Source of the DNA: Ohessyouella blattaphilus
Lineage (GTDB): Bacteria > Bacillota > Clostridia > Lachnospirales > Lachnospiraceae
Direction of reading: 5' to 3'
DNA: 64,000 nucleotides
Assembly (NCBI RefSeq): GCF_024721265.1
Contig: NZ_JAMXOC010000001.1
Span: 248,001-312,000 of the forward strand
The position numbers and the translations under genes were made by a program. Of the stretch, positions 39,630 to 50,734 are shown in pieces; within the stretch, counting starts at the first letter, position 1, and every line of letters begins with the position of its first letter. The notes under the pieces were generated by a model. The model saw nothing but the letters and a program-made list of their open reading frames with translations. It ran no database searches and had not been told where the DNA came from.

Positions 39630-42600
39630 CTATTTACCGTATTTCTTCCTTCTTAAAAAGATGATGATACAAGTTAAGAGTGCGAGGATTACGATTCCCG
39701 TCCAAAGAGCAATCCAGGAATTGTCTCCCGTGGTGATAATCGATTTTTTCGAAGTTTTACCACCATTCTTAAGGTTGGCGTCGCCAGCTGGCTTAGCATC
39801 TGCTGTAATCTTAGCGTTTACCGTCTTTTCAATCACTTTTTTAAGCTGTGGCTCTAACCCTGGCTTAGTAATCTCTTCTTGAATCTCATAGCCTTCGAGA
39901 ACCACTGTCGTAGTAATCGGCGCTGTTGCCGCTAATAAATTCTCCAGATTTGGTTTTACTTCAAGGTCGGTCACCTCGTCTCCCACCACTTTTTTAGCTG
40001 CTGCCTTTGTCTCTTTTGTCACATAAGCTTCTAGCGTTCCCTCTTTCTTCATCTTATTCAGCTCCGATATGCTCATTTCGATATCGACACCTATTATTTC
40101 ATAACGATACAGAGAAAGCACTACCGTGGTACTTGTTGTATCTGGGGCAATAAGGGTGATGTTTACTTTTCCGGTCTTTTCTTTGCTAATCATTTCATTA
40201 AGAGCATGAATGGTAGTTTCGTCAATAGCAATATCTCCCCTAGCTATGTCCACACCCTCAGCATCCACAGCCTTGGTTTTTAAAATCTCTTTTATAGAAT
40301 CGGCGCTAAGAGCACCTTTGTCGATATTGTAATCTCCATCTTTGGCACTAAGTACGGTGCCAATTAACGTTACCGGAATCGTAAGACCAAGTTTCTTATC
40401 AGTCGTTTGGTAAGCAAGAGTATACTCTCCCAAAGCTCTTTCCCCGATAGCTTTATTAATCTTCTGCAAATCTTCTACCGAGGTGTCCACACCATCCTTA
40501 ATCTCATTTCCAAACTTATCTTCTAGATATACATTAGATAAAGCATTCATACTAGCCTCATCTAATTCCCCGCCAATAACGTCGTAACGTACTCCGTTGG
40601 CACCTAATCGACGGCCGTCATCACCTGTATTTACGTAATCAAATAAGGTTACGCGAATGCCGACGGTTAGATTATCTGGCGAACCAAAGGTTAAGTTAAA
40701 GCTACGCTCTCCTTTGTATCTGTTGCCTTCCGCAAAGATTTGTCCTTTTGCCTTATTTATGGCTTTTAATTCATCAGCATTCACCGTAATATCTGCTGCT
40801 TGATATTTATTTTGGTGTTTATCGTTGGCCCAGGCTTTTCCTAACTCCTTAGCAAGGTTGGCTGTCAAATCATCGGCTTGTGCTAAGTTAGTATCTGATA
40901 CATGGACTCCGTAGATAAAATTCGTTCCCCCAATGGCGCCTTTACCGTCTTCAATTGTTCCCACGCCTGTAAGGGTCACGGTAATCGTTACCTTATCGCC
41001 GGTATTTGCATCTTTATCATAATCCTGAGTATAGAAGGTCAGCTCATATTGTCCCTTTATACCTGCAAGGATTTGATCATTGATGTGCTGTAACTGGGCC
41101 GAATCCACAGTTGCTTTATCAAGCTCTTGCTTCGTGCTACCATCCGCCTCAAAGCCAGCCACTACTACCTTGGCAAGTACTTTTGCTTTTGCCGCATCAA
41201 TAGGGGGCATTGCCGTACCGCTTTCATCGGCAACTGCGTAGCTAAAGTGACTAGCACCGATTTTGCCCTTCTCGCCATTAACATCTGTTTTGGCAAAATA
41301 TGCGTATAGCTCTTTATCGCCCGTATCCGTTGGTTCGATTTTTACAACTTCGGTACCACCGCTAGCGCTATCATACCATCCTAGGAAAAGGTGACCGGAC
41401 TTGCTAGTTGGAGCAAAGGATGAAACACCAACACCATAGGTGTACTTGGTCGGGTTACTCGTTGCTTCGCCGCCATCTAGGTGATAAGTGATTTTATACT
41501 CGTTAAGTTTCCAAACGGCGTAAACCGTTTTCTCAGATATAAAATCAATCTCGGTACCGTCGCCAAAATCAGCGACAGTGGCATCATTGGTGGTTGCCCA
41601 GCCGAGGAACTCATGACCGGCTCTCGTTGGATTCGTTCCCGGTAATGCAGAAGCGGTCAGTGCCGAGCCATATGGGTAAGCAATGCTCGCCGGCGAAGCC
41701 TCTGTGTCACCACCGTTCTTATCAAAATTAACGGTGACATTGACAGCCTTCCACTGAGCTTTCAAGATGATCTCGCCTGCTTCAGAAAAGAAGACTTCTC
41801 CACCAGCGGAATATTCATTTCCAGCTCCATCTTTCCAATTTATAAATTCGTATCCGGCAAGCGTTGGTTCCTGATTGCTTACGGCAAATTTATTGCCTGC
41901 AACTATGCCATAAATACCAGAGGAAGCTATCGGCATATTCTCTGCTCCCGTTATGTCACTAGGCAATTTGCTTGGCAAATTCTGGTCATATGTCAACTGA
42001 ATTAATTGCGTACCAAAGCCAACTTTGCTTGAATACGCCTGTAAGAACACTGGCGAGTCCCCTTTTTCTAGGGCGTAGTATTTAAATTGATTATAGGCTA
42101 CCTGACTGCCGCTGCTAGGTATTTTGAACTTAAGTATCGCATCCAAGCTCTCTCCTGCAGCGATCGTATGCGTGCCAAATTCAATGTAGATTGCCGTAGC
42201 CTTTGCCGCACCACCAATCGCTTCCGCATTTTCTTTCCAGATATCCGCTTCGCTTGGCGCGTATGTGGCCAGATTAATCTCATCATATGTTGGCAATTCT
42301 GTAATCGCTACATCTGTATAATAAATTTTATAATCTAATGCATCTGGTACATTCACACCCTCAAAGCTAACGTTACCATCCGAACCGCGTCCGTCTGTAG
42401 ACGAGGGCAAAATATTGTAAATCTTTAGATTGTCAAAGTCCGTATTTCCTGTATTGGTTAGCGTCGCTTTCATCTCAACGATTTCATCGTGTGTCGCCGG
42501 AACAAAAGCATCTGTAACCCAAGCATTTTCTGTAGACGCACTCTTTACGCTACCAGTACCAGATAGTGCCGTCACTGACACAATGCTTAGAGGTGAATGG

Positions 42601-45080
42601 TAATAGTCCACCATACCCGTGTAATTATCACCATCGACAAAGCCCATAGCTGTGGCCATCTCTGACCCTAGGTTATTCTGATATATGCCGTTTATATGCT
42701 CATATTTGGTTGCGTCTTTCTGAGTGACGGCAACCGCAGGAATCGGATAATATCCCGGCTGTGCGCCCGCCGCAACTTTAAATTCTAAAGGTATCTTATA
42801 AGAAACCTCACTTTCCACTATGGCCCCGCAAAGCCCTTCGTCTGCTTGAAGGTTATAGTAATTATAATTCTCATCTGAGCTAACAAGACTCACCGCTACT
42901 GCACCTGTTTCCGTCTTCTGATTCACCACGTCGATAAAGTCTTTTGGTGTACCTATGTCTTGCAATTCTAGGACTTTGGGAACAGCAATAACGATTCGCG
43001 GATTTAGCAAATCACCATCCGACCTGATTCCATCGTTATATCCCTGGACTTCGTAACTTACACTCTCTCCTGGCTTCTTACCGTTGGCATTACTGCTAAC
43101 CATATCGACACGAGCGTAAGGGGCATCAGAATAATACACCTTGTGGTCTTGACTTGGCCATGATGTGGGGTCTCCGCTTTCTGTATCATAAAATAGGGTC
43201 CACTGTAGGGTAAGCGGCGTATTGTAGCCTACCTCGGTACCATCGGGCCACTTATAATCCGCCCACTGCTTGGGCTCATAGTAAAAGCCCACAGAGGTCT
43301 TTGGTGGAAACTTCCCTTCATCTTCTGCATTTCCCGCGGTGCCCATAGGCACAGCAGTCACATTATCATAGTAATGTCCAGCTGCCAAAGGTGGAAGCTC
43401 TATCCTTTTACCGTATTCATTACTAGGTTCTGTTTCTCCCTGACTAATTACCTGATCGGAAGCATCCTTTATTTGATAGGTAAGCTTTACGTAGGGAGTA
43501 GGATATTTATCCGGATCAAGGGAATCCGGATAAACTAGAAAGTGAGAAAAATTCACTTTACCAGAACCGGTAGATTCTTGATTCAGTTCCAGGCTTACTC
43601 CTGTTATTGCTTTCGAGCCACTGTTCTTCGTGGATGCTCTATCTACGTATTTGTCCGTCGATACATAGATGCCTACTGGCTGGTTGTCTGTTTTCTTTGA
43701 AACCACTGACCACCAGTCGCTTTTCGTATAATGAAAGCCGGTATTTTCCAACTTCCATTCTTGCTCTGGCACTTTTTCATAGCCAAGACTAGCACTCGTG
43801 GTCTGAATGGCGCCATTCATTTTCTTATAGTCTGCCCCTATCGTAATCTTAAATTTCGTTCCATCTTCCATAGTATCTGGAAAAGAGATTCGAGGTTCAT
43901 ACATGCATCCAGCGTAATAGAGGGCTCCCCCGTACTGCCACTCATTCCACTTATCAGACGTATTGGCGATTTGGCCTGTGTAACGCTTATAGCCTACAGG
44001 GACGGCTGGATTATCGCTATTGGTTTCTAACTCCTCATTAAAAAATTCTAATGTAGGACTATCTTTAATCTCCGCTTCTTCTGGAATCTCGATATAAATC
44101 ACACTCTTATAACTTGGATCAAAGTCTGCTTGATACCAATCGAATTGCTTGTAATTCGCCTGAAGCGATAATATCCCCCCTGAAAACTGGTTGTTTATCG
44201 GCACCAGCGGAAGTCCAAACGGTTCAATCACAGTATCGGCCACGGTTCTAATTTCTTGATTTGCCGCCGTCACCTTCACTTCGCCATCTACTCTTAAAAC
44301 TGGCTGTAGGTTCCAAAGAACGGAACCATTATCGATGAGACCTAGCCCTTTACCAGCACCATCCGTCTTCAGATACTTAGCTGCATTAAAGTCAAAACGA
44401 AGTGTAAGAGAATCTACGGTTGCCGCACTTAAATTGTCTTTGATTTTCAAAACCAGAGTGTCTGCCGTGCCATCCGCGCCTTTTACTATTTCATAGCCGC
44501 TATACATCGAATCGCTTTTAAGGTCGATAGACGACTCATCTAAAACAAAGATATCATCCGTCATTGTAAAATTAGGATGGGTTGCCCCGGTCGGTCGATA
44601 AGTAAGGGGCACTTCCACTTGGGCACCTGTAATTCCTGATTGGAAGGAAGCCTTTAGCGTTACGGTTAAGGGCTGCGGCGCTTTACCAGAGTCTTCATTT
44701 ACAAATGTCTGGTATTCATTAGTAGATGGCTCTGCTACCAAATTAAGGCTTCCCGTATCTTGAGGTCCAATTTTGGCAACGCGTCCTTCCTTTTGAGGAA
44801 TTTCCGGGGCCTCTTCTTGCACCAACTGGGGAATCGTTTCCTCTTCGTTATCTGTCCCCTGTTCTTCTTTCGGTAATTCTTCCGTAATGAGGGATTCCTC
44901 TCCTGATTCTTCAACTACTTCTGTATTTTCTTCTACCTTTTCTTCACTACTGCCTTGAGTCTCTTCTGTCTGAGCAGTAACATCATCCGCCAATACCGGT
45001 GTGATACTACCACAAACTAACGTCAAGGCCAGAAGTATGCCAAGCAAAGATTGTAACCATTGTTTTCTTTGTTTCTTCAT
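39630..45080 (-). CDS. giant repeat-containing cell-surface protein with InlB-type repeats and variant sorting signal
   Basis: The 1816-residue protein has a signal peptide (LLGILLALTLVCGSITPVLA) and an acidic Glu/Thr-rich stretch to about residue 100. A long beta-rich region follows to about 1030, including an isopeptide/DUF11-like segment (VEMKATLTNTGNTDFDNL). Next come three or four Listeria-Bacteroides (InlB B) repeats at about 1030-1275 (YEFINWKDGAGN, HEFLGWATTND, HLFLGWYDSASGG), then four or five similar modules of about 100 residues to about 1720. The end is a sorting-like signal: IITTGDNS, a hydrophobic helix and RRKKYGK. The pentapeptide is not LPxTG. It is probably an adhesin or cell-wall scaffold. 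It is the last gene after a dedicated two-component locus and also has its own promoter. Confidence 0.88.
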   Translation of the reverse strand: MKKQRKQWLQSLLGILLALTLVCGSITPVLADDVTAQTEETQGSSEEKVEENTEVVEESGEESLITEELPKEEQGTDNEEETIPQLVQEEAPEIPQKEGRVAKIGPQDTGSLNLVAEPSTNEYQTFVNEDSGKAPQPLTVTLKASFQSGITGAQVEVPLTYRPTGATHPNFTMTDDIFVLDESSIDLKSDSMYSGYEIVKGADGTADTLVLKIKDNLSAATVDSLTLRFDFNAAKYLKTDGAGKGLGLIDNGSVLWNLQPVLRVDGEVKVTAANQEIRTVADTVIEPFGLPLVPINNQFSGGILSLQANYKQFDWYQADFDPSYKSVIYIEIPEEAEIKDSPTLEFFNEELETNSDNPAVPVGYKRYTGQIANTSDKWNEWQYGGALYYAGCMYEPRISFPDTMEDGTKFKITIGADYKKMNGAIQTTSASLGYEKVPEQEWKLENTGFHYTKSDWWSVVSKKTDNQPVGIYVSTDKYVDRASTKNSGSKAITGVSLELNQESTGSGKVNFSHFLVYPDSLDPDKYPTPYVKLTYQIKDASDQVISQGETEPSNEYGKRIELPPLAAGHYYDNVTAVPMGTAGNAEDEGKFPPKTSVGFYYEPKQWADYKWPDGTEVGYNTPLTLQWTLFYDTESGDPTSWPSQDHKVYYSDAPYARVDMVSSNANGKKPGESVSYEVQGYNDGIRSDGDLLNPRIVIAVPKVLELQDIGTPKDFIDVVNQKTETGAVAVSLVSSDENYNYYNLQADEGLCGAIVESEVSYKIPLEFKVAAGAQPGYYPIPAVAVTQKDATKYEHINGIYQNNLGSEMATAMGFVDGDNYTGMVDYYHSPLSIVSVTALSGTGSVKSASTENAWVTDAFVPATHDEIVEMKATLTNTGNTDFDNLKIYNILPSSTDGRGSDGNVSFEGVNVPDALDYKIYYTDVAITELPTYDEINLATYAPSEADIWKENAEAIGGAAKATAIYIEFGTHTIAAGESLDAILKFKIPSSGSQVAYNQFKYYALEKGDSPVFLQAYSSKVGFGTQLIQLTYDQNLPSKLPSDITGAENMPIASSGIYGIVAGNKFAVSNQEPTLAGYEFINWKDGAGNEYSAGGEVFFSEAGEIILKAQWKAVNVTVNFDKNGGDTEASPASIAYPYGSALTASALPGTNPTRAGHEFLGWATTNDATVADFGDGTEIDFISEKTVYAVWKLNEYKITYHLDGGEATSNPTKYTYGVGVSSFAPTSKSGHLFLGWYDSASGGTEVVKIEPTDTGDKELYAYFAKTDVNGEKGKIGASHFSYAVADESGTAMPPIDAAKAKVLAKVVVAGFEADGSTKQELDKATVDSAQLQHINDQILAGIKGQYELTFYTQDYDKDANTGDKVTITVTLTGVGTIEDGKGAIGGTNFIYGVHVSDTNLAQADDLTANLAKELGKAWANDKHQNKYQAADITVNADELKAINKAKGQIFAEGNRYKGERSFNLTFGSPDNLTVGIRVTLFDYVNTGDDGRRLGANGVRYDVIGGELDEASMNALSNVYLEDKFGNEIKDGVDTSVEDLQKINKAIGERALGEYTLAYQTTDKKLGLTIPVTLIGTVLSAKDGDYNIDKGALSADSIKEILKTKAVDAEGVDIARGDIAIDETTIHALNEMISKEKTGKVNITLIAPDTTSTTVVLSLYRYEIIGVDIEMSISELNKMKKEGTLEAYVTKETKAAAKKVVGDEVTDLEVKPNLENLLAATAPITTTVVLEGYEIQEEITKPGLEPQLKKVIEKTVNAKITADAKPAGDANLKNGGKTSKKSIITTGDNSWIALWTGIVILALLTCIIIFLRRKKYGK

Positions 45081-45121
45081 ACTCTTCCTCCTTTTCGAAT
45101 AATGGGTGTGTCTACACCGTT

Positions 45122-45150
45122 AGTCTAACAAAGAAGGTTTTTCGCATCAA
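45122..45150 (-). promoter_or_regulatory. putative promoter of the surface-protein gene
   Basis: TTGATG (45150-45145) and TAGACT (45127-45122) on the minus strand with a 17-base spacer. Upstream, TTTTGTGTCG (45205-45214) repeats the TTTGTGTC core found before the response-regulator pair. Confidence 0.6.
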
Positions 45151-45220
45151 AGAACGCCAAATTAAAATAACTCGCAATAGGTGGTTTGTATTTTCTTCGG
45201 CGTCTTTTGTGTCGTTTATG

Positions 45221-45922
45221 TCATTCCCTCATCTCGATATCCTTCTTTTTTGCATAAGAAATAAAAAATTCGCTAAGCTCGTTGCGTGCTCGTGATAAGA
45301 ACACGTACAACGCCATAATCAGCATCACCGGCACTAGGACTAGGAGAATAATTGCCATCGCGAACCACAGAATGTATTCATCTTCCCACTGTAGAAGACT
45401 GCTCTCCTTGTCCAGACTCATGTAGATAAAATCTTTCCGACTAAATATCTCTGCCCCGGTACGATAGGCATGAATCGTTATCGTTGTTCCCCTCTGCGTA
45501 CTATAACTAATCTCCCCGTAATTCTCTGTTATCTGGTTGGTAACCACCTTCGTAATAGGGACTTCACTACCATCCTCTAAAGACCAAGCGTGAGCTCTCG
45601 CTCGCCGGATCATCTCTGTCTTTGTAAACTCCTTCATTTCCTCGGCTTTGGTAAACTCAAAATCGCTAGCATCTATACCTTCCCTGTGAACTTTTGAAGT
45701 GACTGTGTAATCATAGGTCACCGTAATATAAACAATCCCTTCAATCTCTTCCCCTTCGTCCTGGGCCGCTATCTTCACCGGATAAGTGCCGGCTCTCTTA
45801 ACCTCGGTAACTTCTTCTGGAGTATAGATCTTTTGCTTATCCTCCTGGGCGCTAACTATTGTGGTCTGACAAGTTAGCAAGATTAAGAGAAGTATTCCCA
45901 TTATCTTTCTTGTGCCAATCAT
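45221..45922 (-). CDS. secreted/membrane protein of unknown function in the surface-protein locus
   Basis: The 233-residue protein has a signal peptide (IMGILLLILLTCQTTIVSA), an extracellular part of about 155 residues and one membrane helix near 185-212 (WFAMAIILLVLVPVMLIMALYVFL), then a basic cytoplasmic tail. The outer part contains two strands with TYPVKIAAQDEGEEIEGIVYITVTYDYTV and a later EISYSTQRGTTITIHAYRT. No known family is recognised. It overlaps the histidine kinase gene by 4 bases, so it may be a sensor accessory or a surface-assembly helper. It ends just before the surface protein promoter region. Confidence 0.75.
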   Translation of the reverse strand: MIGTRKIMGILLLILLTCQTTIVSAQEDKQKIYTPEEVTEVKRAGTYPVKIAAQDEGEEIEGIVYITVTYDYTVTSKVHREGIDASDFEFTKAEEMKEFTKTEMIRRARAHAWSLEDGSEVPITKVVTNQITENYGEISYSTQRGTTITIHAYRTGAEIFSRKDFIYMSLDKESSLLQWEDEYILWFAMAIILLVLVPVMLIMALYVFLSRARNELSEFFISYAKKKDIEMRE

Positions 45923-47328
45923 TCCTCGCCCTCCTTATCTGGTAAAAATAAGGTGGCTGTCACCAAATCGTCAGTAATCTCATACTTATATTCACCGCCT
46001 AGCATCTGGGCTAAGTCCTTAATCAAGTAGAGTCCATTGCCGCTACTATAGGTATGATCTTTGTCTGCTGTATGGTTCTTTACCACGTAGTCCATTCGTT
46101 CACTACGTCGCATTCTATCAATATCCTTGCCTTCGCTCTGGTTCTTGGTGATGACTAAAATACCTTCTTCACGCTTATGGACATCAACAATTATTTCCGT
46201 CTCGGAAATCGTATAGTGAACTAGATTCGTTAAGATGTTATGGATCAATAATTGTACCCCCGCTTTGCTCTGATTAAGAGTACTGTCTTGCGGTCCTTCG
46301 TAGCTAAACAGCAATTTCTTCTTCTCCATCTCCGGGCGGTTGTGATTCTGTGAGGTGAGAATAAGCTCTTCCATATCAATCGTTTCAATACTGCTCCCCA
46401 CATTGTAAAGGTCTTCTCGCATAACCTTTAAAATCCCATTAATCTCTTGTAAGAGCTTCTGAGAATGGGCTATGTTCGAACGAAGAGCAATTTTACGCTC
46501 TACCGTTAGCTCGTCATGCTTGAGCTTGATTTCATTTTCTATTAGCGATTGGTGTACTGGTCCCTTTAAGTCATGAACTAACGCTCTAGAAAGCTGAATG
46601 GTGTTTTCTAGGCGGTCGCTTTCTACAGAAAGCGCCAACTCTAGATTCGTATTTTTACTATAGACTTCCTTGAGCGCACTGCGCTGTCTAACAAAGAAAT
46701 TTCCTAACCGTTCATTCAAAGGGTCCGTAGAACTCACTCCTTGGAAATGTTCCATATTGTCTTGTTCTGCTTGCTCTAATGATTCCGCCACCTGATAAAG
46801 AGGGTTTAAAAGGTTCTTAAGCAAGAGAATAATTAATACAAAAAGCACCAGAAAAATCACTGCCACTAAGAGGTTCTGCCTTAAGAGAAATCCCTCTAGC
46901 TGGTTCACAAAGGTGGTGCGATAGATCACGTACCAGACGTAATGCAGCTTGCCATCTAGAATAACTTCACCGCCGCCTTCCACGAATTTGGCCTGCTTAT
47001 TAATAAGACCTTGGAGCTTCACGTCTTTTTCAAAAGGTAAGCTTTCAAAGACTACCTGATTATCTTTATTCACCACGACTATCTCTACAGCGTATCTCTC
47101 TATTAGATCCTGCAGAGCTTCTTCCCTTTCTTCTGAGTGGAGAGCCTCGTCGATTTCTTTTTTTACAATTTCTACGTGTTTGAGTTCCTGATTTCGGTAA
47201 GATTGTCTGAAAAAATATAGATTACTAAAGATAAAAATGACTACGATTGCAAATAGTAGTGTGGACATTATAAAGACTTTGCCCATTTCTCGTCTGCTTC
47301 TGTTCCCCTTTACTTTACTCCTATTCAT
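45919..47328 (-). CDS. divergent membrane histidine kinase of the surface-protein locus
   Basis: The 469-residue protein has two helices (about 20-40 and 155-180) around an extracellular segment, a HAMP-like linker, a coiled dimerisation region and an ATPase domain. The H-box reads LSRALVHDLKGPVHQ, with HD in place of the common HE. The N-box NILTNLVHYT is present, but the G1 box DxGxG is replaced by KNQSEGKD; the G2 box is GNGLYLIKDLAQMLGG. It therefore looks kinase-like but divergent, and activity is uncertain. It is preceded by two regulators and followed by the small membrane protein with a 4-base overlap. Confidence 0.85.
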   Translation of the reverse strand: MNRSKVKGNRSRREMGKVFIMSTLLFAIVVIFIFSNLYFFRQSYRNQELKHVEIVKKEIDEALHSEEREEALQDLIERYAVEIVVVNKDNQVVFESLPFEKDVKLQGLINKQAKFVEGGGEVILDGKLHYVWYVIYRTTFVNQLEGFLLRQNLLVAVIFLVLFVLIILLLKNLLNPLYQVAESLEQAEQDNMEHFQGVSSTDPLNERLGNFFVRQRSALKEVYSKNTNLELALSVESDRLENTIQLSRALVHDLKGPVHQSLIENEIKLKHDELTVERKIALRSNIAHSQKLLQEINGILKVMREDLYNVGSSIETIDMEELILTSQNHNRPEMEKKKLLFSYEGPQDSTLNQSKAGVQLLIHNILTNLVHYTISETEIIVDVHKREEGILVITKNQSEGKDIDRMRRSERMDYVVKNHTADKDHTYSSGNGLYLIKDLAQMLGGEYKYEITDDLVTATLFLPDKEGEE

Positions 47329-47354
47329 ATATCAAGTCTCCCCTCCTTGCCTTC

Positions 47355-48026
47355 TCATTCATTCCACTTGTACCCAACTCCCCGAATAGATACTAGTGAT
47401 GATATTTGAAGCTTCTCTCGTATCCTCCGAATGTGTACATCAATCACCCGGGGATCAATTTCTTCTATCTCGGTAGTCCATAACTCAGCGATAATTTCGT
47501 CCCTTGAAAAAGCTCTGTTTTTATGTCTTAAGAAATGTAATAATACCTCAAACTCCTTTTTTGTTAACTCGATGTGTCTCTCCCCTTTATACACATCGTA
47601 TCCTTTACTGTCTGCGGTGATACCTTCCGCTTCCGAGCAAAAAAGCGTTTCTTCCTTTCGACTGCTCTCATCTCGCAAAATTCTAAGCACGTAATGATTG
47701 ATCATCTCTAGGCTTTTTTCCTTGCTTAAAAAGAAGTCCACTTTTAGATTCAGAGCAATATGTTCGATGTCTTCCGCCTGATAGCCTGTGAGCATGATTA
47801 TTTTTACAGTAGGTCTTATCTCCTTCATCGTCTTAATTAGTCTAAGCCCATCTATGTTCTCCATTTTATAATCGGTAACCACAAGATCATAGCTTTCTCT
47901 TGTAAACCTCGATAAAGCTTCGATTGGATTATATTCGGTGACGATACGATAACCCGGTGTCACGATAGCTAACTTAATCGTGTCTATATATTCCCGGTCG
48001 TCATCTACCAGCAAAATATTGTACAT
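47355..48026 (-). CDS. OmpR-type response regulator 2 of the surface-protein locus
   Basis: The 223-residue protein begins MYNILLVDDD and has phospho-acceptor Asp52 in YDLVVTDYKMENIDG, the Thr in IIMLTGYQ, and a winged-helix output (ELTKKEFEVLLHFLRHKN; VIDVHIRRIREKLQ; SIRGVGYKWNE). The usual KPF near the conserved Lys is replaced by SKEKS, as in its neighbour. The start at 48026 follows AGAGGAGC; a longer open frame would overlap the first regulator. It is 13 bases after regulator 1 and clearly paralogous to it, so the pair arose by tandem duplication and divergence. Confidence 0.93.
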   Translation of the reverse strand: MYNILLVDDDREYIDTIKLAIVTPGYRIVTEYNPIEALSRFTRESYDLVVTDYKMENIDGLRLIKTMKEIRPTVKIIMLTGYQAEDIEHIALNLKVDFFLSKEKSLEMINHYVLRILRDESSRKEETLFCSEAEGITADSKGYDVYKGERHIELTKKEFEVLLHFLRHKNRAFSRDEIIAELWTTEIEEIDPRVIDVHIRRIREKLQISSLVSIRGVGYKWNE

Positions 48027-48039
48027 AAGCTGCTCCTCT

Positions 48040-48729
48040 CTAAAGTCCTTTCCATTTATAACCGTAGCCTCTAACAGAAGAGATACTATAGATTCCCAGT
48101 TTGGCTCGAAGTCGCTTAATATGTCCATCAATCACTCGCAATTCTACCTTCTCAATCTCCTTTGTCCAGAGCTTATCAGCTATCATTTCACGACTAAGAG
48201 CAATCCCCCTATTTTCTAAAAACAATACCAGTAGCTCATACTCCTTCTTCGTAACCTCCACCGGTACGTCATTCTTATACACTTGACGCTTGCCGGTATC
48301 AATTATCAGATTATCCTCTTTAGAGATCAGCTTATACCCAGAATCTCCCTTCTGAATAATCTCTTTATTTAGCAAATCTTCAATATACTTTATCGTCACA
48401 TGAAAGCTTTTATCTTTGCTTAAGTATTGATCCACATTCACTTCTAACGCCTGTATTTCAATGTCTTCCTCTGGAAATGCCGTTAAGATAATACTTTTTA
48501 CCGCTGGATTAATACCTTTTAAAATCGAAAACATTTTAATCCCATCCATTTCCTTCATCCGGTAATCGGAAACGACAATATCATAAGGCTCTTTAACGTA
48601 CTGAGCAACTGCATCTACTGGGCTCGCGATATACGTCACTTCAAAACCTTTATCTTCTAATTCCTTTTGTAAATTTTTCGCATAGTATTCATTGTCCTCT
48701 ACTAGTAAAATTCGCTTTTTCATTTTCAT
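48040..48729 (-). CDS. OmpR-type response regulator 1 of the surface-protein locus
   Basis: The 229-residue protein has the acidic pair VEDN, Asp55 in YDIVVSDYRMKEMDG, the Thr in IILTAFPEED and a winged helix (EVTKKEYELLVLFLENRG; VIDGHIKRLRAKLG; VRGYGYKWKGL). The conserved Lys is in LSKDKS with no following Pro, unlike typical OmpR proteins. It shares its layout with the next gene throughout. It is first in the five-gene locus, behind a promoter with 11-base direct repeats, so autoregulation is likely. Confidence 0.93.
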   Translation of the reverse strand: MKMKKRILLVEDNEYYAKNLQKELEDKGFEVTYIASPVDAVAQYVKEPYDIVVSDYRMKEMDGIKMFSILKGINPAVKSIILTAFPEEDIEIQALEVNVDQYLSKDKSFHVTIKYIEDLLNKEIIQKGDSGYKLISKEDNLIIDTGKRQVYKNDVPVEVTKKEYELLVLFLENRGIALSREMIADKLWTKEIEKVELRVIDGHIKRLRAKLGIYSISSVRGYGYKWKGL

Positions 48730-48779: not shown

Positions 48780-48866
48780 ATCTTAGCAAAGCCGCTTTCC
48801 ATACACAAACACATCTTAATCATGTTTGTTCGTTTTGTTTACTTTGTGTCTTTTTCGTGTCTTTTT
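48780..48866 (-). promoter_or_regulatory. promoter and direct-repeat region of the surface-protein locus
   Basis: TTGTGT (48808-48803) and TAAGAT (48785-48780) with a 17-base spacer. Upstream, two tandem 11-base units TGTGTCTTTTT and CGTGTCTTTTT (48845-48866) lie where an OmpR-type activator would bind; on the minus strand they read AAAAAGACAC. Confidence 0.72.
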
Positions 48867-48911
48867 ACCAAGACCATTCCCATTTTTTGTAAAATTTTTC
48901 GCAAAAAAAAA

Positions 48912-48931
48912 CGCCTCTTTACGTCGAGGCG
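48912..48931 (-). terminator. terminator of the fprA-glnA-dapL operon
   Basis: Arms CGCCTC/GAGGCG, loop of eight bases, followed on the minus strand by nine T residues. Confidence 0.85.
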
Positions 48932-48949
48932 CTGTTTTTTGCTATGGTA

Positions 48950-50185: not shown

Positions 50186-50734
50186 TTACTCGTCTCTAAT
50201 ACTAATCACTTCTAAGGCTGTATCCACCAGGCGCTGGCCTTTGTCCATACTGGATTTTTGCAAGAATCTGTGGGCCTCTTCCTCTGTCATTTGGTTGCGG
50301 CCAATCAGAAGCTCTTTCGCCTGGGCGACGATTGCCTTCTCTTCCTCTGTGAGCATCTTCTTTTGTTTACGTTTTTTCTTTCGGTAGACCGCATAATCGT
50401 TGATTAACATGCCCACCGTATTGATGAGCTCGTACCCTTTAAGGGGCATCGGCAGACCAATAATATTTTCACTGGCTACGCCCGCTAAATTCTCCGGCGC
50501 AGTAATCAAAAGCATATTTAAGTCCTTAGGCAAATAGTCCCGCAACTCGAGGACCATCATATCCGCTAGGCGATAGCCACTGATGACCACGCCTCTCTCC
50601 AGGGTCTCTGTAAGTTGTAGCGCCTGCGCACCAGTAGTGCATACGCCTAGTACTTCGATTCCATTTTTGGTTAATAGGTTACGTATATTAATCCCATTAT
50701 CTTTGTTGGGAAAAACAACAATTACTCCGAACAA
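50186..50734 (-). CDS. ANTAR-domain RNA-binding antiterminator with degenerate receiver
   Basis: The 182-residue protein has a receiver-like half (about 1-115) and a C-terminal ANTAR domain: KKMLTEEEKAIVAQAKELLIGRNQMTEEEAHRFLQKSSMDKGQRL. ANTAR proteins bind paired hexanucleotide-loop hairpins in leader RNAs to prevent termination, often for nitrogen genes. The receiver lacks the acidic pair (VFPNKDN) and the phospho-acceptor Asp (VVISGYRLADMM), so control is probably by ligand or partner binding, not phosphorylation. It follows glnA by 34 bases. I did not find a matching paired-hairpin target nearby. Confidence 0.9.
   Translation of the reverse strand: MFGVIVVFPNKDNGINIRNLLTKNGIEVLGVCTTGAQALQLTETLERGVVISGYRLADMMVLELRDYLPKDLNMLLITAPENLAGVASENIIGLPMPLKGYELINTVGMLINDYAVYRKKKRKQKKMLTEEEKAIVAQAKELLIGRNQMTEEEAHRFLQKSSMDKGQRLVDTALEVISIRDE

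Follow-up and report, generated by a model that had tools for sequence, protein, structure and literature searches.

Introduction

The CmrRST system of C. difficile combines two OmpR-family response regulators and one kinase in a single operon, with autoactivation by one of the regulators (PMC6837544, PMC12548384). According to the parts of the second report available here, CmrR activates cmrRST, and both homo- and heterodimers were detected, the biological relevance of the CmrR/CmrT heterodimers being called unclear (PMC12548384). A second described kind of locus, the WxL/Csc clusters, is found in Enterococcus and relatives (PMC1534035). Here we analyse a locus of Ohessyouella blattaphilus (Lachnospiraceae) with features of both kinds, located at positions 39630-48729 of a 64,000-nucleotide stretch of contig NZ_JAMXOC010000001.1 (assembly GCF_024721265.1, positions 248,001 to 312,000), which is referred to as the window. 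Five minus-strand open reading frames (ORFs) lie here, encoding, in the order 5' to 3', the response regulators RR1 and RR2, a sensor histidine kinase, a membrane protein and a surface protein of 1816 residues. An earlier note on this DNA had placed five same-strand genes at these positions, and this was borne out. We lean towards viewing the locus as a local two-component system whose dedicated target is a single giant, adhesin-like surface protein.

In its regulatory genes the locus is arranged like CmrRST, as gene order and spacing predict one operon with two OmpR-type regulators and one kinase. The earlier note had considered two regulators with one atypical kinase unusual, a view that is weakened by the C. 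difficile precedent as far as it is described in the available text (PMC12548384). The two systems also differ. CmrT is described there as a pseudo-receiver, whereas RR1 and RR2 are both complete, and the available text of the two CmrRST reports (PMC6837544, PMC12548384) mentions neither an adjacent giant surface gene nor an accessory membrane gene, both of which are present here. The CmrR site is given as an inverted repeat (ACAAT-N8-ATTGT), while the boxes found here are direct repeats of GACAC. Moreover, cmrRST is reported in the same text to be phase-variable by inversion, whereas no inverted-repeat pair of at least 14 bp brackets the RR1 promoter; three inverted-repeat pairs were found between 44900 and 49100 in the assembled letters, and none of them brackets it.

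To the WxL/Csc clusters, as they are presented in the available part of their description (PMC1534035), the locus is tied by its surface protein, which is 30% identical to the large protein encoded in a WxL operon on an E. faecalis plasmid. Unlike in these clusters, the protein has no WxL end but a C-terminal transmembrane (TM) segment with a TGD tail, and none of cscA (DUF916), cscB and cscD was found among the six proteins scanned here. By analogy, the locus appears to be of known kinds, with CmrRST-like wiring, for which CmrRST is the closest precedent, and a surface protein related to that of the WxL clusters on a different anchor.

Organisation of the locus and shared promoter boxes

The first four genes are tightly packed, with gaps of 13 bp between RR1 and RR2 and 26 bp between RR2 and the kinase gene, and a 4-base overlap between the kinase and membrane protein genes, whereas 140 bp lie between the membrane protein gene and the surface gene. 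Each ORF is preceded by a Shine-Dalgarno-like sequence, a plausible ribosome-binding site. For RR2 the most likely start is the ATG at 48026, after GAGAGGAGCAGCTT, and not an upstream TTG that overlaps RR1. A terminator-like hairpin (48910..48933, minus strand) behind the upstream aminotransferase-like gene separates that gene from the operon. By eye, weak promoter-like hexamers can be seen before RR1 (TTGTGT-17-TAAGAT, 48780..48808, minus strand) and before the surface gene (TTTGAT-18-TAGACT, 45122..45151, minus strand), both absent from the list of a consensus scan. The five genes probably form two transcription units, a four-gene operon of RR1, RR2, kinase and membrane protein and a separately promoted surface gene. 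The single unit proposed in the earlier note would hold for the first four genes but is doubtful for the fifth, given the 140 bp in front of it.

Both predicted units are headed by similar tandem boxes on the minus strand. Before RR1, the box AAAAGACAC-N2-AAAAGACAC (48846..48865) has a repeat spacing of 11 bp and starts 136 bp upstream of the ATG; before the surface gene, the box AAACGACAC-AAAAGACGC (45200..45217) has a spacing of 9 bp and starts 137 bp upstream of the ATG. When the RR1-promoter box alone was used (AAAAGACAC with at most one mismatch, pairs 9-12 bp apart), two pairs were found in the window, those of RR1 and of the surface gene, compared with 0 pairs in 40 simulated windows. 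In the whole genome the pattern GTCTTTTN{0,4}GYGTCNTTT has three matches, two of them at this locus, and the reversed pattern has none. The third pair (L114:5072-5089, contig C34:61071-61088) has the 11-bp spacing of the RR1 box. The occurrence of a rare motif in both promoters suggests that the operon may switch the surface protein on.

Response regulators and sensor kinase

RR1 (229 aa; 48040..48729, minus strand) and RR2 (223 aa; 47355..48026, minus strand) are response regulators of the OmpR/PhoB type. In both, the Pfam models Response_reg (PF00072) and Trans_reg_C (PF00486) score over the cut-off, and with 40% identity to each other they are paralogues in tandem, in agreement with the earlier note. 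All five catalytic receiver residues are kept (ED, D55, T83 and K105 in RR1; DD, D52, T80 and K102 in RR2). The same note had described both as lacking the usual KPF motif, which is absent in the sense that RR1 reads SKDKS and RR2 SKEKS (KDK and KEK) at this site; the conserved lysine is still present, however, and among these motifs the proline alone is lost. A proline after this lysine is common in OmpR/PhoB-type regulators but does not define them. By the definition of a pseudo-receiver in the available part of PMC12632262, RR1 and RR2 fall outside that class, and such an assignment was ruled out by the complete set of catalytic residues in both. RR1 and RR2 are unlike in the second half of the receiver, where both also depart from the canonical regulators found in this genome.

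The sensor kinase (469 aa; 45919..47328, minus strand) has two TM segments (residues 13-43 and 144-181) with an extracytoplasmic stretch between them, in which a match to sCache_like stays under the cut-off (E 0.051). Its H-box reads HDLKGP with the histidine at H252, the N-box lies at 364-372 with NILTN at 364, and the G2 box is SGNGLYL at 429, while VITKNQSEG at 392-400 replaces DxGxG at the G1 site. HATPase_c is matched with an E of 1.6e-5, its 25.7 bits falling short of the cut-off of 26.4; HisKA has no Pfam match at E up to 1. The HD H-box and the loss of DxGxG noted earlier are both seen, but solved kinases share them: the bacteriophytochrome kinase 9rcc also has HDL at the H-box, and DxGxG is missing at the G1 site in both solved relatives with an alignment shown (two of the three structure matches). 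Judged by its motifs, neither feature would argue for a dead kinase or establish degeneracy, and a necessarily inactive kinase was rejected; H, N and G2 boxes are present, and both aligned relatives likewise lack DxGxG. The AlphaFold2 (AF2) model was of low confidence, too poor for a fold search, and not relied on (mean predicted local distance difference test score, pLDDT, 51, a figure given for both kinase and membrane protein).

Among 397 family genomes, a relative of the kinase at E 1e-20 was found in one, its own genome; at most four candidates were scored per genome among the matches listed, so that misses are possible. The wider genome contigs gave no confirmed relative of the kinase, and the plasmids gave no match to it.

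The bitopic membrane protein

The gene that overlaps the kinase gene encodes a bitopic membrane protein (233 aa; 45221..45922, minus strand) with a signal peptide, an ectodomain of ~150 aa, one TM segment (179-213) and a short cytoplasmic tail. Its AF2 model was too poor for a fold search. The earlier note had found it to resemble no known family, which is true of Pfam and NCBIfam, where no model scores over the cut-off. Residues ~64-149, however, are similar to a domain that ABC ATPases carry as an insertion. Besides its own genome, 10 of 298 family genomes contain stretches of 30-35% identity, within frames that are 525-557 aa long, and over both searches made the identity to the ectodomain is 30-39% over ~90 residues. 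The four matching frames that were read (L002, L004:502-2121 and L006, three of the ten family-genome matches, and L038, one of two further matches from a search of phylum genomes) all encode ABC ATPases, by eye of the polyamine type, with a permease gene following. The ~90-aa domain, which no Pfam model covers, sits behind the TOBE match of the ATPases (Pfam scan for L004), by eye in two copies, and hhalign relates the ectodomain to six ATPase segments with 97% probability.

In the ATPases the domain is cytoplasmic and present twice within the protein, whereas the membrane protein carries one copy outside the membrane; the same domain is thus used inside and outside the cell. Full-length relatives of the membrane protein were not found in the 298 family genomes, in two same-genus genomes including its own or in plasmids. 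The idea that its ectodomain and the C-terminal segments of the surface protein are one and the same repeat was rejected (hhalign 0.2%).

The surface protein

The surface protein (1816 aa; 39630..45080, minus strand) consists of a signal peptide, an ectodomain, InlB-type repeats, C-terminal segments at 1271-1761 and a C-terminal hydrophobic anchor. Two plasmid-encoded proteins are homologous to it: E. gilvus WP_114525412, aligning with residues 120-1244 (33% identity), and E. faecalis WP_016622119, aligning with residues 35-1260 (30% identity), the latter encoded in a run with WxL and DUF916 genes. The homologous ectodomain covers ~120-1245, the alignments spanning about 1100-1280 residues. 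List_Bact_rpt (InlB-type) repeats lie toward its end, the best at 1195-1260, and are followed by about five weakly alike segments, cut by eye; BLASTP of the protein against itself found no internal repeats. The description of a huge repeat protein therefore fits the size, the InlB-type repeats and the weak C-terminal segments, but not the ~1100 residues of non-repetitive ectodomain.

At its C-terminus the protein reads IITTGDNS-TM-RRKKYGK, without the proline of LPxTG. The genome has 19 anchor-like places; among eight tails listed, three have TGD without LP (VVNTGDGA, DVKTGDAN and IIRTGDPA) and three have LPLTG or LPLSG. Because of these three TGD tails and nine sortase-domain matches over the cut-off in the genome, a TGD-type anchor is plausible for the surface protein. 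The tails of TGD, TM and basic residues stand beside pilins with LPLTG and are possibly a second type of sorting signal.

Outside its own genome, searches for the ectodomain gave full-length relatives on Enterococcus plasmids only. The ectodomain profile matched 4 of the 397 family genomes, its own and three with pieces of 115-120 positions (E 6e-4 to 8.4e-4) and no full-length relative. A joined query matched 4 of 398 phylum genomes, again its own and three with short, weak matches. With the profile, nothing was confirmed in the wider genome contigs or viral contigs, and phages gave no match.

A clade of sister regulators in this genome

In a midpoint-rooted tree of 15 regulators (14 that this genome yields at E 1e-10 or better, plus another from the window), a branch with 100/100 support sets RR1, RR2 and three others apart from the rest; inside this group RR1, RR2 and a member on contig C34 are not separated. 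The three other members are degenerate in the receiver. In the C34 member (L056:7805-8479) the phosphoacceptor aspartate is replaced by tyrosine and the lysine by arginine, and the remaining two, a tandem pair on contig C32 (L055:1-11529), have lost the acidic pair and the threonine. An FctA/DUF11 protein is encoded upstream of the C32 tandem with one ORF between, and ~3.7 kb downstream, after four intervening ORFs, come genes for a signal peptidase (LepB) and an FctA pilin and a sortase-like gene, whose 26.3 bits narrowly miss the cut-off of 26.6. The C34 member adjoins a gene that by eye resembles a hybrid kinase.

When a profile of the five members was run against the 397 family genomes (at most seven candidates scored per genome among the matches listed), 190 passed E 1e-38, but the genome's own members reached 317-336 bits and the best from another genome 157. 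The KPF motif was present in all 29 regulator loci fetched from other genomes. Within the sample the clade is a family of this genome alone; of its three sites, two hold a tandem pair with surface genes nearby. Among plasmids RR1 matched 26 records with an E of 1e-20 or lower, the best 10 of the 26 at 31-35% identity, with an ordinary annotated regulator-kinase pair around the best match. In viral contigs the regulator profile found three loci of 26-39% identity.

Enterococcus loci and gene order

In E. gilvus, two paralogous genes (EGCR1_RS14165/14170) stand immediately before the homologue of the surface gene; over 99 aa their products share 34% identity. The first product has a Trans_reg_C domain without a Pfam receiver match and aligns end to end with the regulator profile, weakly, at 53.8% probability. 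The second has no winged helix, no significant Pfam match and only 0.3% with the regulator profile, its relation to the first gene being the sole ground for considering it akin to receivers. What ties this E. gilvus locus to the present one is that a homologous surface gene directly follows genes for a Trans_reg_C protein and for a second protein paralogous to the N-terminal half of the first.

A relative of the first E. gilvus regulator (33%), K5P74_RS14650 of E. raffinosus, heads an accessory-Sec locus; five E. raffinosus records were matched, of which this one was inspected. On this plasmid (L117:9001-18633) the OmpR-like regulator lies directly upstream of secA2-secY2-asp1-3, and in the stretch covered no kinase is annotated beside it, unlike at the present locus.

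The earlier note had proposed a search for the same gene order in other genomes. Conservation was not found, as searches of the sampled genomes, including another of the same genus, gave neither a kinase relative nor a full-length ectodomain relative.

Flanking genes

Downstream, the locus is followed by an SDR dehydrogenase gene and two tRNAs, which were the sole Rfam matches between 38300 and 50300 at E up to 0.5; no known riboswitch was found before either promoter. Upstream of the operon, a small ORF of 182 aa (window 50186-50734) lies between a glutamine synthetase-like and the aminotransferase-like ORF, and its product looks regulator-like, perhaps of the ANTAR type.

Possible roles of the locus

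The observations from which we argue are the gene content, the homologies, the catalytic residues, the rare boxes common to two promoters, and the sister-regulator clade with its second tandem near pilin and sortase-like genes. In the scheme we slightly favour, the membrane kinase would phosphorylate RR1 and RR2, and the bitopic protein, whose gene overlaps that of the kinase, would perhaps act as an accessory sensor or modulator. The phosphorylated regulators would bind the paired GACAC boxes as homo- or heterodimers. Binding before RR1 would autoactivate the operon, and binding before the surface gene would switch display on, presumably by activation rather than repression. Adhesion is the presumed function of the displayed protein. 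The earlier idea of a surface-display locus is supported by the shared boxes, the sister tandem and the E. gilvus gene pair, but the gene order was found nowhere else.

Several points weigh against a dedicated locus. The third box pair in the genome lies between an asparagine-synthase-like gene and a small HPr-like gene (both by eye), which it precedes in place of a surface gene, and the contig of the C32 tandem has no GACRC pair. Repeat spacings of 11 bp before RR1 and 9 bp before the surface gene are awkward for a single OmpR-type dimer, and the genome pattern was written post hoc, when both sites had already been seen. The strongest ungapped similarity of the two upstream regions is another stretch (17/20, with none of 60 simulations as high), which on the RR1 side overlaps the terminator of the neighbouring gene. 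The 27 kb covered near the E. gilvus homologue, with an incomplete gene table, contain no annotated kinase, and a Mga-type regulator lies downstream; the E. faecalis plasmid relatives have, by eye, no such regulator pair just upstream. Gene order is neither confirmed nor refuted beyond this genome, and conservation cannot be used as support.

The difference in spacing and letters between the two box sites would fit a division of labour as in CmrRST, in which RR1 autoactivates the operon via the 11-bp boxes, while control of the surface gene and of distant genes falls to RR2 or an RR1-RR2 heterodimer, the adhesin being one of several outputs. CmrR autoactivation and the homo- and heterodimers of C. 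difficile, as given in the available text (PMC12548384), point the same way, as does the divergence of RR1 and RR2 in the second receiver half. Both, however, have a full active site where CmrT is a pseudo-receiver, and with only one further site in the genome a large regulon is not visible with this motif, so that we consider such a split possible but rather unlikely. The adjacency might also be due to chance, a lineage-specific two-component system having come to lie beside an acquired surface gene that is under other regulators. The confinement of full-length ectodomain relatives to Enterococcus plasmids, that of close clade members to this genome, and the GC contents of 0.37 for RR1 and 0.44 for the surface gene would be expected in this case. 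That a rare box pair is common to both genes at nearly equal distance from their start codons, and that two paralogous genes, one OmpR-like, also precede the E. gilvus homologue, speak against chance, which we regard as improbable. An envelope-stress system, in which the kinase together with the membrane protein would detect damage to the cell wall, with the surface protein as just one effector, appears very unlikely. Accessory membrane proteins encoded with the kinase are known from Gram-positive envelope systems such as SaePQRS and LiaFSR, but the operon has no evident detoxification or cell-wall gene, and none of the Pfam and NCBIfam models, any for SaeP/SaeQ or LiaF included, reaches its cut-off with the membrane protein.

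Beyond a locus dedicated to one surface protein, the clade may conceivably represent a lineage-specific family of paired OmpR regulators, each pair serving its own surface cassette. At this locus the bitopic protein and the kinase would then monitor the displayed adhesin, giving closed-loop control via RR1/RR2 homo- and heterodimers that read the differently spaced GACAC boxes. We put this extension forward as speculative and unlikely in its full form.

How anaerobes of this kind time the display of giant adhesins is, to our knowledge, little understood. With a single kinase, two sister regulators that are both complete, a pair of predicted binding sites and a single target, the locus would offer a self-contained test case, and it bears on the question of whether paired OmpR regulators act as heterodimers.

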